Shown piece after piece: positions 35,677-39,376 of a stretch of DNA of 39,376 nucleotides. Position 1 is the stretch's first letter; each line of letters opens with the position of its first letter. The stretch is from positions 1-39,376 of the forward strand of contig CAMWMS010000004.1 in assembly GCA_947175435.1 (NCBI GenBank), given 5' to 3'. This DNA comes from an uncultured Lachnospiraceae bacterium. GTDB taxonomy: Bacteria > Bacillota > Clostridia > Lachnospirales > Lachnospiraceae. The translations under genes and the position numbers were made by a program. Under the pieces are notes generated by a model. The model made no database searches. It was not told where the DNA came from and saw only the letters and a program-made list of their open reading frames with translations.

Positions 35677-35868
35677 CTACACCGCCGCAATCTTAGCCAT
35701 CAGATCATCCACTGCGATCCCGTGCACCATAGCTGCCTCTTCCAGCGTCTCTCCCTGTGCGGACGGACATCCGAGACAGTGCATGCCGATCTCCATGAGC
35801 ACCGGTGCGATATCAGGGTTCGTTCTTAAAGCTTCGCCTATTGTTGTGTCCTTTGTAATATCTGCCAT
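35677..35868 (-). CDS. DUF1858 domain protein
   Basis: A 63-aa protein made up of one DUF1858 domain, the small redox-disulfide family often found beside or fused to hybrid-cluster and respiratory-type proteins. It shows [20 protein letters not shown] and the signature cysteine pair [17 protein letters not shown] at about residues 29-45. An ATG at 35874 is only 3 nt from GGAGG, so the ATG at 35868, 9 nt away, is preferred. It is divergent from the PFL operon. Its electron partner is unknown. Confidence 0.88.
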
Positions 35869-35957
35869 GATCATTTACCTCCGTGCATCCCGCGCAGGCG
35901 TAAACTTTTATTTTCTGGTTATCAAAATGTATTATTTCCCATGTCTTTATGTTTCAT

Positions 35958-36093: not shown

Positions 36094-36123
36094 TTGACTC
36101 TTCCGCTTGCTATAACATATAAT
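36094..36123 (+). promoter_or_regulatory. Promoter of the split pfl operon
   Basis: TTGACT (36094-36099), an 18-bp spacer and TATAAT (36118-36123). Confidence 0.7.
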
Positions 36124-36209: not shown

Positions 36210-38249
36210 ATGAGACCAGAATGGAAAGATTTTGTAGGCGGCAAATGGGACAAAGAAGTCAATGTTCGTGACTTCATCCAGAGAAACTATCATCCGTATG
36301 ACGGTGATGAGTCCTTCTTGGCAGAGCCTACACAGAACACCAAAGACTTATGGGCACAGGTTCTTGATTTGCAGAAGCAGGAGCGTGAGGCAGGCGGCGT
36401 ACTTGATATGGATACTAAGGTTGTATCTACGATCACATCCCACGGCCCGGGCTACTTAGACAAGAGCAAGGAGACAATCGTAGGTTTCCAGACAGATAAG
36501 CCCTTCAAACGTTCTTTACAGCCTTACGGCGGTATCAGAATGGCAGAGAAAGCTTGTACCGATAACGGTTACGAAGTTGATCCCGAGATCAGCGAGTTCT
36601 TCTCCACACATAGGAAAACACACAATGCCGGCTGTTTCGATGCATATAATGCAGAGATGAGAGCTTGCCGTTCTTCTCATATTATCACAGGTCTTCCGGA
36701 TGCTTACGGACGCGGACGTATCATCGGCGACTACAGACGTGTTGCTCTGTACGGTATCGACAGACTGATCGAGGATAAGCAGGCACAGAAAGATTCTACA
36801 GGTCGTGTTATGACAGACGATGTGATCCGTCTTCGCGAAGAGCTTTCCGAGCAGATGGTAGCACTTAAGCTGATGAAAGAAATGGCTGCTTCCTATGGTT
36901 GCGATATTTCCAAACCTGCTTCTAATGTAAAAGAAGCTATCCAGTGGACATATTTCGGATATCTGTGCTCCGTTAAAGAGCAAAACGGTGCTGCAATGTC
37001 TCTCGGACGTACTTCTACATTCCTTGATGTATATGCAGAGCGTGACCTTGCTAACGGTACATTTACCGAGAAAGAAATTCAGGAGTTCGTTGACCACTTC
37101 ATTATGAAGTTAAGACTGATCAAATTTGCACGTACACCTGAGTATAACCAGATTTTCGCAGGCGATCCGGTATGGGTAACAGAGTCCCTCGGCGGTGTTG
37201 GTGTTGACGGTCGTCCGATGGTAACAAAGATGAGCTTCCGTTACCTGCACACATTAACTAACTTAGGACCTTCTCCGGAGCCGAACTTAACAGTACTCTG
37301 GTCCACAAGACTTCCTGAAGCTTGGAAGAAATACTGTGCTAAGATGTCCATCCAGACTTCTTCCATCCAGTATGAGAACGATGATCTGATGAGAGTAACT
37401 CATGGTGATGACTACGGTATCGCATGTTGTGTATCCTCCATGGTTATCGGTAAGGAAATGCAGTTCTTCGGCGCACGTGCTAACGTTGCTAAGTGTCTGT
37501 TATACGCATTAAACGGTGGTATCGATGAAGTTACTAAGAAACAGGTTGGACCTAAATATCGTCCCGTTACCGGTGATGTACTGGATTACGATGATGTTAT
37601 GGATAAATTCATCGACATGTTAGAGTGGCAGGCAGATGTGTATGTAAATACACTGAACATTATCCACTACATGCATGACAAATACTGCTATGAGAGAGCA
37701 GAGATGGCTCTTCATGACAGAGATGTTAAGCGTTACTTCGCAACAGGTGTTGCAGGTCTCTCCATCGTAGCTGACTCCTTATCTGCTATCAAGTATGCTA
37801 AGGTTGAGCCGATCAGAGACGAAGACGGTATCATCGTTGACTTCAAGACAACAGGTGAGTTCCCGAAATATGGTAACGACGACGACCGCGTAGATGAGAT
37901 CGCTCAGGAAATCGTTCACAAGTTCATGACAGCGATCAGAAGACATCACACCTACAGAAATGGTGTTCCTACAACCTCTATCCTTACAATTACGTCTAAC
38001 GTAACTTATGGTAAGGCTACAGGTAATACACCTGACGGACGTAAGAAAGGTCAGCCTTTCGCTCCGGGTGCTAACCCGATGCACGGACGTGATACTCACG
38101 GTGCAGTAGCTTCCTTATCTTCCGTATCTAAGCTTCCGTTCAACGATGCACAGGATGGTATCTCCAATACCTTCACCATCATTCCGGGTGCTCTTGGTAA
38201 AGAAGATCAGGTATTCGCAGGCGATATCGAATTAGATCTGAATAAATAA
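36210..38249 (+). CDS. Pyruvate formate-lyase catalytic core, lacking the glycyl-radical domain
   Basis: Catalytic barrel of PFL, which converts pyruvate and CoA to acetyl-CoA and formate. The 679-aa protein retains the active-site cysteine pair (Cys406-Cys407 in [10 protein letters not shown]), [31 protein letters not shown] and [20 protein letters not shown], all closely matching E. coli PflB. It stops after [20 protein letters not shown], exactly where full-length PFLs continue into the C-terminal glycyl-radical domain. AGGAGG precedes the ATG at 36210; an upstream TTG frame is ignored. Together with the separate 80-aa domain the total is 759 aa, the length of an intact PFL. On its own it should be inactive. 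Confidence 0.93.
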
Positions 38250-38251
38250 GA

Positions 38252-38308
38252 TGATTTCAGCAAAAGCTGAAATCGGAAAAAAATCCATATATGACAGATT
38301 TTTTTCCA
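38252..38308 (+). other. Two hairpins between PFL core and the small genes
   Basis: First a 9-bp perfect stem, GATTTCAGC-AAAA-GCTGAAATC. Immediately after comes an 11-bp perfect stem, GGAAAAAAATC/GATTTTTTTCC, with an 11-nt loop. Neither is a standard terminator for read-through to be blocked completely. They could be processing or stability elements that set different mRNA levels for the core and the small subunits. Confidence 0.65.
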
Positions 38309-38332
38309 AAGATATCTAAGGAGGAAAAATAT

Positions 38333-38536
38333 ATGGATAATAATCAGATGATTGAAGACTTTGTCAAGATGATGGATTCCGGTATGGCACAGGGTGTCGG
38401 ACATGTGAATGTAGACGTTGATGACAAAGCTGACAATTCTAAAAATGTGCAGACAATGGGGTGCACGGATTGCTCCCGTACCCCGTTGGCTTGCAGTGTT
38501 CCGACTCTCCATGAGGGTTTAGACGACTACAAATAA
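38333..38536 (+). CDS. 67-aa cysteine-containing protein of the split PFL operon
   Basis: AAGGAGG precedes the ATG. Residues 7-34 (IEDFVKMMDSGMAQGVGHVN then VDVDDKAD) align without gaps with residues 8-35 of the glycyl-radical protein encoded next ([20 protein letters not shown] then VNVLNRDT). V, D, G, H and the NVxV core are identical. The radical loop is absent. In its place is a tail with Cys44, Cys47 and Cys54 (MGCTDCSRTPLACSVPTLHE). It looks like a duplicated and remodelled glycyl-radical domain. Possible roles are assembly, protection of the radical, or metal/redox sensing; all are inference. Confidence 0.8.
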   Translation: MDNNQMIEDFVKMMDSGMAQGVGHVNVDVDDKADNSKNVQTMGCTDCSRTPLACSVPTLHEGLDDYK

Positions 38537-38551
38537 TAGGAGGACAAAACA

Positions 38552-38794
38552 ATGGCAGCAGCAAATGCTCAGGTAGATAACTTAGTTTCTTTATTAGATG
38601 GTTATGCAACAAAAGGTGGCCATCACCTTAACGTAAACGTACTCAACAGAGATACTTTATTAGATGCTCAGAAGCATCCTGAGAACTATCCTCAGTTGAC
38701 GATTCGTGTATCCGGTTATGCAGTAAACTTCATCAAATTGACACCGGAACAGCAGGCAGACGTTATCTCTCGTACATTCCACGAGTCAGTATAA
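38552..38794 (+). CDS. Stand-alone glycyl-radical domain of PFL (GrcA-like)
   Basis: An 80-aa protein equivalent to the C-terminal domain of PFL and to the autonomous cofactor YfiD/GrcA. It carries [18 protein letters not shown] and the radical motif RVSGYAVNF, with the radical glycine at residue 55, and ends in [11 protein letters not shown] like intact PFLs. It should dock on the core protein encoded upstream to supply the glycyl radical after activation by PflA. AGGAGG lies before the ATG, 15 bp after the 67-aa gene. Unlike E. coli GrcA it is the only such domain for the truncated core in this operon. Confidence 0.92.
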
Positions 38795-38814
38795 TTCTAA
38801 ACGTCAAGTATACA

Positions 38815-38842
38815 GGAGTCTCGCAACAGCGAGGCTCCTTTT
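38815..38842 (+). terminator. Terminator of the split pfl operon
   Basis: A 10-bp stem, GGAGTCTCGC-AACA-GCGAGGCTCC with one G-T pair, followed by TTTT. Confidence 0.88.
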
Positions 38843-38979: not shown

Positions 38980-39168
38980 ATGTCAGATGCAGCAAATATC
39001 ATCAGGGATTCCATTACAGAATTTTCAAGATTACAAAATTGGATGCTATCCGTCAGGGATAAAGATCCGGTAACATACAATTCAATGTATGAACGATATA
39101 TTGAATTAAAAGTGACATTAACAACTTTAGGAGTTAAGCTTACCGGACTGGATAGAATAAAAGAGTAA
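38980..39168 (+). CDS. Hypothetical 62-aa protein before pflA
   Basis: A small helical protein (MSDAANIIRDSITEFSRLQN start, charged TGLDRIKE end). No family is recognised. It is transcribed from its own promoter between the split PFL genes and pflA. A weak AAAGAAAG ribosome site precedes it, and a family B repeat separates it from pflA. Its position suggests a link with PFL activation, but this is inference. Confidence 0.6.
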   Translation: MSDAANIIRDSITEFSRLQNWMLSVRDKDPVTYNSMYERYIELKVTLTTLGVKLTGLDRIKE

Positions 39169-39250
39169 ATCGCTTCGCAAAGTTAACAAAGCGAGCAAGT
39201 TCGCTTGCGAGAAATTGCTTATGAGATGCTACGCACCTCCGCAAACTCGT
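39168..39250 (+). repeat. Hairpin repeat, family B copy 5 (long form)
   Basis: Begins at the stop of the 62-aa gene. It has an extended 5' arm with an AGCAAG-TTC-GCTTGC hairpin, then GCGAGAAATTGC, the shared TTATGAGATGCTACG insert and GCAAACTCG. Confidence 0.75.
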
Positions 39251-39299: not shown

Positions 39300-39376
39300 A
39301 TGCAGGGAAGAATCCACTCTTTAGAAAGTTTCGGTACGGTAGACGGGCCGGGAACACGTTTTGTAGTTTTTGTGCA
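39300..39376 (+). CDS. pflA: Pyruvate formate-lyase-activating enzyme, 5' part only
   Basis: Radical-SAM enzyme that installs the glycyl radical. Only the first 25 codons are in the window: MQGRIHSLESFGTVDGPGTR followed by FVVFV. This matches the conserved PflA start (ESFGTVDGPGIR). The CxxxCxxC cluster motif lies beyond the edge. AAAGAAGG precedes the ATG. Its presence confirms the neighbourhood as a complete PFL system. Confidence 0.9.
   Translation, partial: MQGRIHSLESFGTVDGPGTRFVVFV

Follow-up and report, generated by a model that had tools for sequence, protein, structure and literature searches.

Pyruvate formate-lyase (PFL) is an oxygen-sensitive enzyme at the centre of fermentation. 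In Escherichia coli the small protein YfiD (GrcA) works in trans on the PFL core (PMC8683613). That source gives cPFL:YfiD, the oxygen-cut enzyme with its spare part, a kcat close to that of PFL, reports that YfiD is not activated without a PFL, and shows that a core cut to residue 695 has undetectable YfiD binding and 32-fold less activation; residues 696-733 are proposed there as the recognition element for YfiD (PMC8683613). PflB G734A together with GrcA gave intermediate formate in cells (PMC12338860). The E. coli precedents show that a two-chain PFL works (PMC8683613; PMC12338860), and what a bare PFL core needs before it takes up a radical domain is a question that the spare-part work leaves open (PMC8683613).

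We analysed a stretch of 39,376 nucleotides (the window) from an uncultured bacterium of the gut-associated family Lachnospiraceae. Judged from its sequence, the locus at the end of the window very probably encodes a multi-chain PFL, in which a third element stands beside the catalytic core and the glycyl-radical (GR) subunit.

A catalytic core and a glycyl-radical subunit in separate genes

The plus strand of the window carries an ORF for a PFL catalytic core of 679 aa (ATG at 36210, stop at 38249), one for a middle small protein of 67 aa from a conserved family (38333..38536, from an ATG) and one for a GR subunit of 80 aa (38552..38794). AGGAGG can be read 8-10 nt 5' of all three starts. A putative sigma-70-like promoter (36094..36123, plus strand; TTGACT, 18 nt, TATAAT), called from a match to 11 of 12 consensus positions, lies 5' of the core gene, and a pattern match suggests an intrinsic-terminator-like hairpin 3' of the unit (38814..38839, plus strand), with an 11-pair stem followed by TTTATG. 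Beyond it, also on the plus strand, the start of pflA, for the radical SAM activating enzyme, is read directly as MQGRIHSLESFGTVDGPGTRFVVFV (39300..39376) before the contig end cuts the gene. Among the 99 core-linked loci that extend 2 kb or more downstream, 72 have a pflA-like frame after the GR gene on the same strand, a count made by a strict motif that misses some frames. Two other features were dropped: as part of the PFL unit, a 62-aa ORF between the terminator and pflA (38980..39168, plus strand), which has its own promoter-like site, is followed by inverted repeats (39170-39208) and has a relative in 1 of 89 loci; and as a conserved processing site, a hairpin in the gap between the core and middle genes (38253-38274), a hairpin being present in 19 of 84 loci with differing sequences and places.

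The core scores 1099.4 bits against TIGR01255, the NCBIfam PFL equivalog (cut-off 994.2), and covers model positions 2-665 of 744; it also matches PF02901, and it matches the Pfam Gly_radical domain, PF01228, over positions 1-51 of 106 only. It has the active-site Cys pair, in IACCVSS, and no glycyl-radical loop. Its residues C406/C407, W322, R170 and R423 align with C418/C419, W333, R176 and R435 of the E. coli enzyme (numbered without the Met), which we take to have catalytic and substrate-binding roles. The GR subunit covers TIGR01255 positions 664-743 and PF01228 positions 50-106, so that the two proteins tile a single 744-position PFL model. By this coverage the radical glycine is absent from the core and sits on the separate 80-aa chain, as G55 in RVSGYAV. 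An earlier note on this DNA had read the core as stopping before the GR domain, with that domain as a gene of its own and with key residues and ribosome sites kept, and the complementary coverage, the aligned residues and the AGGAGG motifs bear it out on each point. It had also added 679 and 80 to obtain an intact PFL of 759 residues. The sum does equal the length of E. coli PFL, but partly by coincidence, since the core runs on for 15 aa after the conserved ALGK, and the GR subunit opens with about eight residues that are its own and has a loop 5 aa shorter.

The split is confirmed as a real arrangement that has been kept. A core match was found in 74 of 77 genomes of the genus, that of G008 being to another enzyme only. 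The 57 full-length cores, in frames of 683-714 aa, all stop at the same place; the remaining PFL rows are fragments and the others belong to other enzymes. There was no intact PFL in the 77 genomes, nor any longer frame matching at PFL level. GrcA3 matches were present in 35 of 37 genus genomes (frames of 78-167 aa; none in G011 and G026), the weaker matches in these 37 being to other, longer enzymes. In the window's own genome, an 82% complete draft of 293 contigs, the core is the single PFL-like match, and the other two Gly_radical matches are NrdD-type ribonucleotide reductases. All three ORFs occur in one locus in named relatives, among them the isolates Eisenbergiella tayi DSM 26961 (L181), Lachnospiraceae bacterium 28-4 (L141), Lachnospiraceae bacterium P6A3 (L182) and bacterium 1xD42-87 (L127). 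Against 16 relatives the median dN/dS was 0.029 for the core and 0.040 for the GR subunit (16 pairs each); for the middle ORF, where 12 of the 16 pairs gave a finite value, it was 0.041; by this measure of their sequences all three are under purifying selection. A frameshift, an assembly error or a pseudogene of an ordinary PFL might be suspected where the parts sum to one PFL and the window comes from a fragmented draft genome, but that explanation is virtually impossible and is refuted by the recurrence in isolates and the purifying selection (medians of 0.029-0.041 on all three ORFs), and by a core-to-GR spacing of 302 nt that holds another conserved ORF, the middle gene, itself found beside 77 of the 95 split cores (a set with many close relatives), isolates included. 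The earlier note was right to call this an arrangement and not a frameshift.

Spread and history of the split enzyme

The GrcA3 cut-off was exceeded in 129 of 397 genomes of the family Lachnospiraceae, in short frames except in G312, G156 and G134 among the matches listed. Intact PFLs are common in other genera of the family, and the one-contig genomes G145, G356 and G325 hold intact and split PFLs side by side. A GrcA3 scan of the phylum found 2 of 398 genomes over the cut-off, both in Lachnospiraceae, and was read as confining the split to one family; a core query of 260 genomes of the class overturned this reading, with at least 13 cores in frames of 677-724 aa, at least 10 of them outside the family. 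Among ten class loci fetched, seven were split, six of these outside the family, and the GR gene adjoined the core in all seven; loci were inspected for 7 of the 13 listed class cores. One of these cores, that of L285, has an in-frame stop. Conservation in relatives, which the earlier note had proposed to check, thus extends from the genus, where the full-length cores end alike, to other families of Clostridia.

GR genes also occur on their own. At 29 of the loci L066-L205 there is a GR gene without a core or middle gene; those of Lachnospiraceae bacterium A4 (L158) and Parablautia intestinalis (L190) are examples. Five genomes (G028, G035, G307, G390 and G281) have one GR gene in a core locus and another in a core-less locus. 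Among free-standing GR genes with at least 900 nt upstream, some of them at loci that are close relatives of each other, 12 of 26 have a CRP/FNR-family gene upstream on the same strand (ten of the 12 within 170 nt of the GR gene or overlapping it) and 14 of 26 have none; the figure for operon-type loci is 2 of 111, both on the other strand. The CRP/FNR assignment was checked by Pfam for two genes (PF00027, PF13545). The GR gene comes right after a CRP/FNR-family gene or overlaps it at L149, L152, L157, L158, L175, L178, L185, L187, L190 and L198. Thioredoxin-like or GroEL-like frames, named by eye from their first residues, lie near some free-standing GR genes (L122, L202; L149, L158). The free-standing genes fit a separately controlled supply of radical subunits.

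The 80-aa protein scores 161.2 bits against NF038360 (cut-off 158) and is already catalogued by NCBI as GrcA3, an 'autonomous cofactor', a family that the earlier note had missed. It might be a mere spare part for a full-length PFL encoded elsewhere, with the core as a paralogue in some other role, and the family name, the existence of free-standing extra GR genes and the presence of intact beside split PFLs in several genomes of the family (G145, G356, G325) would agree with this. We consider it very improbable. The core retains its catalytic residues and scores above the cut-off of the PFL equivalog, and the GR gene follows closely within one unit. A search for an intact PFL elsewhere in the genome, as suggested in the earlier note, found no full-length enzyme for GrcA3 to repair in the window's own draft genome or in the 77 genomes of the genus, so the GR chain carries the only PFL radical glycine seen there. 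The genomic evidence in this genus points to a GrcA3 protein that is a regular PFL subunit, against the repair role that its name implies, and suggests that the annotation 'autonomous glycyl radical cofactor' is better read here as 'PFL subunit'.

In a tree of cores built without the GR region, all 52 split cores fall into one 60-row clade (SH-aLRT 99), and eight fused PFLs are nested inside it as two groups. With six split cores, three fused PFLs and two PDB chains added, the split clade grows to 67 rows (58 split, 8 fused and PDB 38lb) with a support of 99, and the fewest changes that account for it are three. Rows left out of the trees were L219, L222 and L237 (repeats of L078, L080 and L079), L285 (for its core stop) and most of L126-L205, with L127, L141, L181 and L182 kept in; L190, which has no core, was let in. 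The tree labels split_mid and split_tail stand for 'no C' and 'a C' in the core tail, the middle gene being checked separately. A clade of split cores set apart from the nested fused ones was rejected at p-AU 0.006, on a quick tree and for a group named afterwards. Most simply, these sequences would reflect one gene fission and two re-fusions; there may instead have been several splits, or gene transfer. The nested fused pair L079 and L081 have cysteines in the linker, which look as if they were a relic, and the other six nested fused PFLs have a short linker without Cys.

The eight nested fused enzymes and the genomes with both forms indicate that the split is not indispensable, and the apparent re-fusion in two lineages indicates that one chain also works. 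The fission could then have been neutral, fixed by drift, with no exchange of radical subunits in life. That two lineages apparently re-fused the gene, that some genomes keep both forms and that an upstream CRP/FNR-type gene is missing for 14 of the 26 free-standing GR genes would all suit a neutral origin. We think it unlikely, however: the split has persisted across many genera and several families together with a co-occurring third element, and the separately placed extra GR genes, 12 of 26 behind a CRP/FNR-type gene, also suggest that it is put to use.

The middle protein and the cysteine tail

The second half of the window's middle protein contains the motif C-x6-C-x-V-P-T-L-H-E-G-L-D-D. 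In an alignment of 25 hand-chosen middle proteins, the window's included and the truncated L090 and partial L099 left out, G23, H24, N26, C47, C54, P57, T58 and G62 are invariant, and the radical glycine loop is absent, with the Cys motif in its place. A second alignment, of 42 rows, was not counted as evidence because its rows, the window's own apart, had been picked by the Cys motif. The first half resembles that of the GR subunit (hhalign E 4.9e-5 over 29 columns, with a modest probability of 68), and the first 34 positions of the middle profile match GR subunits at E 1.8e-7 to 1e-3. Among known families, Pfam gave no match to the middle protein at E 0.1 and in NCBIfam GrcA3 was the single match at E 0.05, with a score well short of its cut-off; a PHROGs match (E 0.021) and a PDB match (E 2) were taken as chance.

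Where the middle gene is missing from a split locus, another form often takes its place. At 14 of the 95 split loci the core itself has a Cys-bearing tail, for example GSGCEAGSCAIPNLEEGLDRE; this count excludes L105 from 15 loci initially classed as 'tail', its lone tail C not being the motif. A middle gene and a Cys tail never occur together in the 95 loci, and neither form is present in four (L105, L107, L090 and L108). The genomes of L105 and L107 hold a middle-like gene at another place, at L090 (genome G072) the middle gene is cut short by an early stop, and for L108 (G348) no third element was found in locus or genome. With one genome lacking it and another holding a truncated copy, the third element cannot be needed everywhere. 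Each of the 14 tail genomes yielded one weak genome-wide match to the middle profile, as expected from the GR subunit itself. The seven split loci from the class have one form each, four with middle genes and three with tails. At L286 the middle gene (frame from 4021) lies 3' of the GR gene and not upstream of it. By eye, the sequences of tails and middle genes appear related, and for L289 alone the middle profile matches the tail directly (positions 45-67, 18.3 bits).

A middle match at E 2.2e-15 or better was found in 96 genomes (with an internal stop in G393 and G230), and in 95 of these there was a GrcA3 match at E 1.2e-44 or better, as judged by eye among the matches listed; the exception, G066, is 67% complete. 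The middle gene thus belongs to the split PFL system as a conserved third component. The earlier note had seen an extra gene in between, and the ORF is indeed there, but its status as a component had been overlooked. Middle relatives also occur away from PFL, at L279 (G342), L281 (G357), L280 (G066), L282 (G062) and L283 (G190); judged by eye, two of these lie close to a glutamate 5-kinase-like frame. Such placement suggests action in trans, or some second function, for the middle protein.

We propose that the third element is a docking aid for the radical subunit. The main rival is that it is a thiol device, whose two cysteines sense oxidation or quench the radical against oxygen cleavage, and this account is plausible, if short of probable. 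Both cysteines are invariant in the 25 chosen middle proteins, the tail form is without the GR-like half, and cysteines are found in the linker of the nested fused L079 and L081. A small CxxC protein with matches to the DUF1858 and TIGR03980 profiles is moreover encoded divergently from the core in the window (35677..35874, minus strand) as a possible partner; TIGR03980 is a 'hybrid cluster protein-associated redox disulfide' family. Such genes are often beside split cores: for 57 of 89 split cores the 1.5 kb upstream contains a relative, and for 21 of 46 in one subset of the split loci, whereas the figure for fused PFLs is 2 of 30; related rows in these counts are not independent. Against a pure thiol device stands the first half of the middle protein, whose resemblance to the GR subunit would be superfluous.

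Proposed working of the enzyme and comparison with known systems

In the multi-chain enzyme that we favour, chain 1 (679 aa) would bear the site for pyruvate and CoA and the Cys pair, and chain 2 (80 aa) would dock as the core's missing C-terminal domain, placing G55 beside that pair. By analogy with E. coli, PflA would install the radical on G55 within the complex. With no radical glycine of its own, chain 1 is predicted to be active only together with chain 2. The small chain would be cleaved at G55 by oxygen and could then give way to a newly made one of 80 aa. As the earlier note suggested, such exchange of the oxygen-damaged subunit may be the normal mode of this enzyme, an idea that the E. 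coli precedents and the free-standing GR genes support indirectly.

The E. coli data also carry a warning. The poor binding of the spare part by a bare truncated core (PMC8683613) would by analogy count against a multi-chain model. A core that matches E. coli PflB only to residue 681, with a GR subunit that carries the region from 683, leaves the split enzyme with a recognition problem that it must solve. The third element, whether middle protein or Cys tail, probably helps the bare core to hold, recognise or release chain 2, a proposal that follows from the need of the truncated E. coli core for residues 696-733 (PMC8683613) and from the likeness between the middle protein and the beginning of that domain. 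A fuller but tentative and rather doubtful version is a three-part PFL, in which a radical-domain decoy with a Cys pair, as a free protein, a core tail or a copy in trans, would keep the core loadable while the radical carrier is a consumable, the whole having arisen by one fission in Clostridia with two reversals. Were it true, oxygen would cost the cell 80 residues and not a whole enzyme. A separate 80-aa radical part makes subunit exchange directly testable without oxygen cutting, and nature offers a comparison (split with middle gene, split with tail, and re-fused) of what a bare core needs in order to accept a radical domain.

Benzylsuccinate synthase has accessory subunits that are not known to derive from the radical domain or to carry the glycine. 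What they share with the present system is that small additional proteins act on a glycyl radical enzyme (PMC12590467). PDB entries 38la (687 residues) and 38lb (739 residues), known here from their sequences, are PFL chains named 'Formate acetyltransferase'. In the tree 38lb lies within the split clade, its branch being long and weakly placed, and 38la lies next to that clade, so others may be working on a split PFL. The GR subunit has no match to either at E up to 0.001. We found neither a split PFL nor the middle protein described in openly licensed PMC literature, in the passages covered (including PMC8683613, PMC12338860, PMC11528403 and PMC7478625).

The core is 62.7% identical to E. coli PflB over 656 residues, the GR part is 63% identical, and the catalytic residues are the same. 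PflB, however, is one chain, whereas the window's core matches it no further than residue 681 and the remainder is encoded apart, behind an additional gene. GrcA/YfiD is likewise a small free glycyl-radical protein, 77% identical to the GR subunit over 60 residues, but it acts on an intact PFL once this has been damaged, and its N-terminal 60 residues are disordered. The GR subunit instead includes the helix region that precedes the strand (E. coli 683-695), and no intact PFL was found in its genus. With its score above the NF038360 cut-off, the 80-aa protein falls in a family whose name implies repair. What seems new here is the division of the labour of PFL among chains that draw on known chemistry and known parts, together with a middle part that is apparently undescribed.
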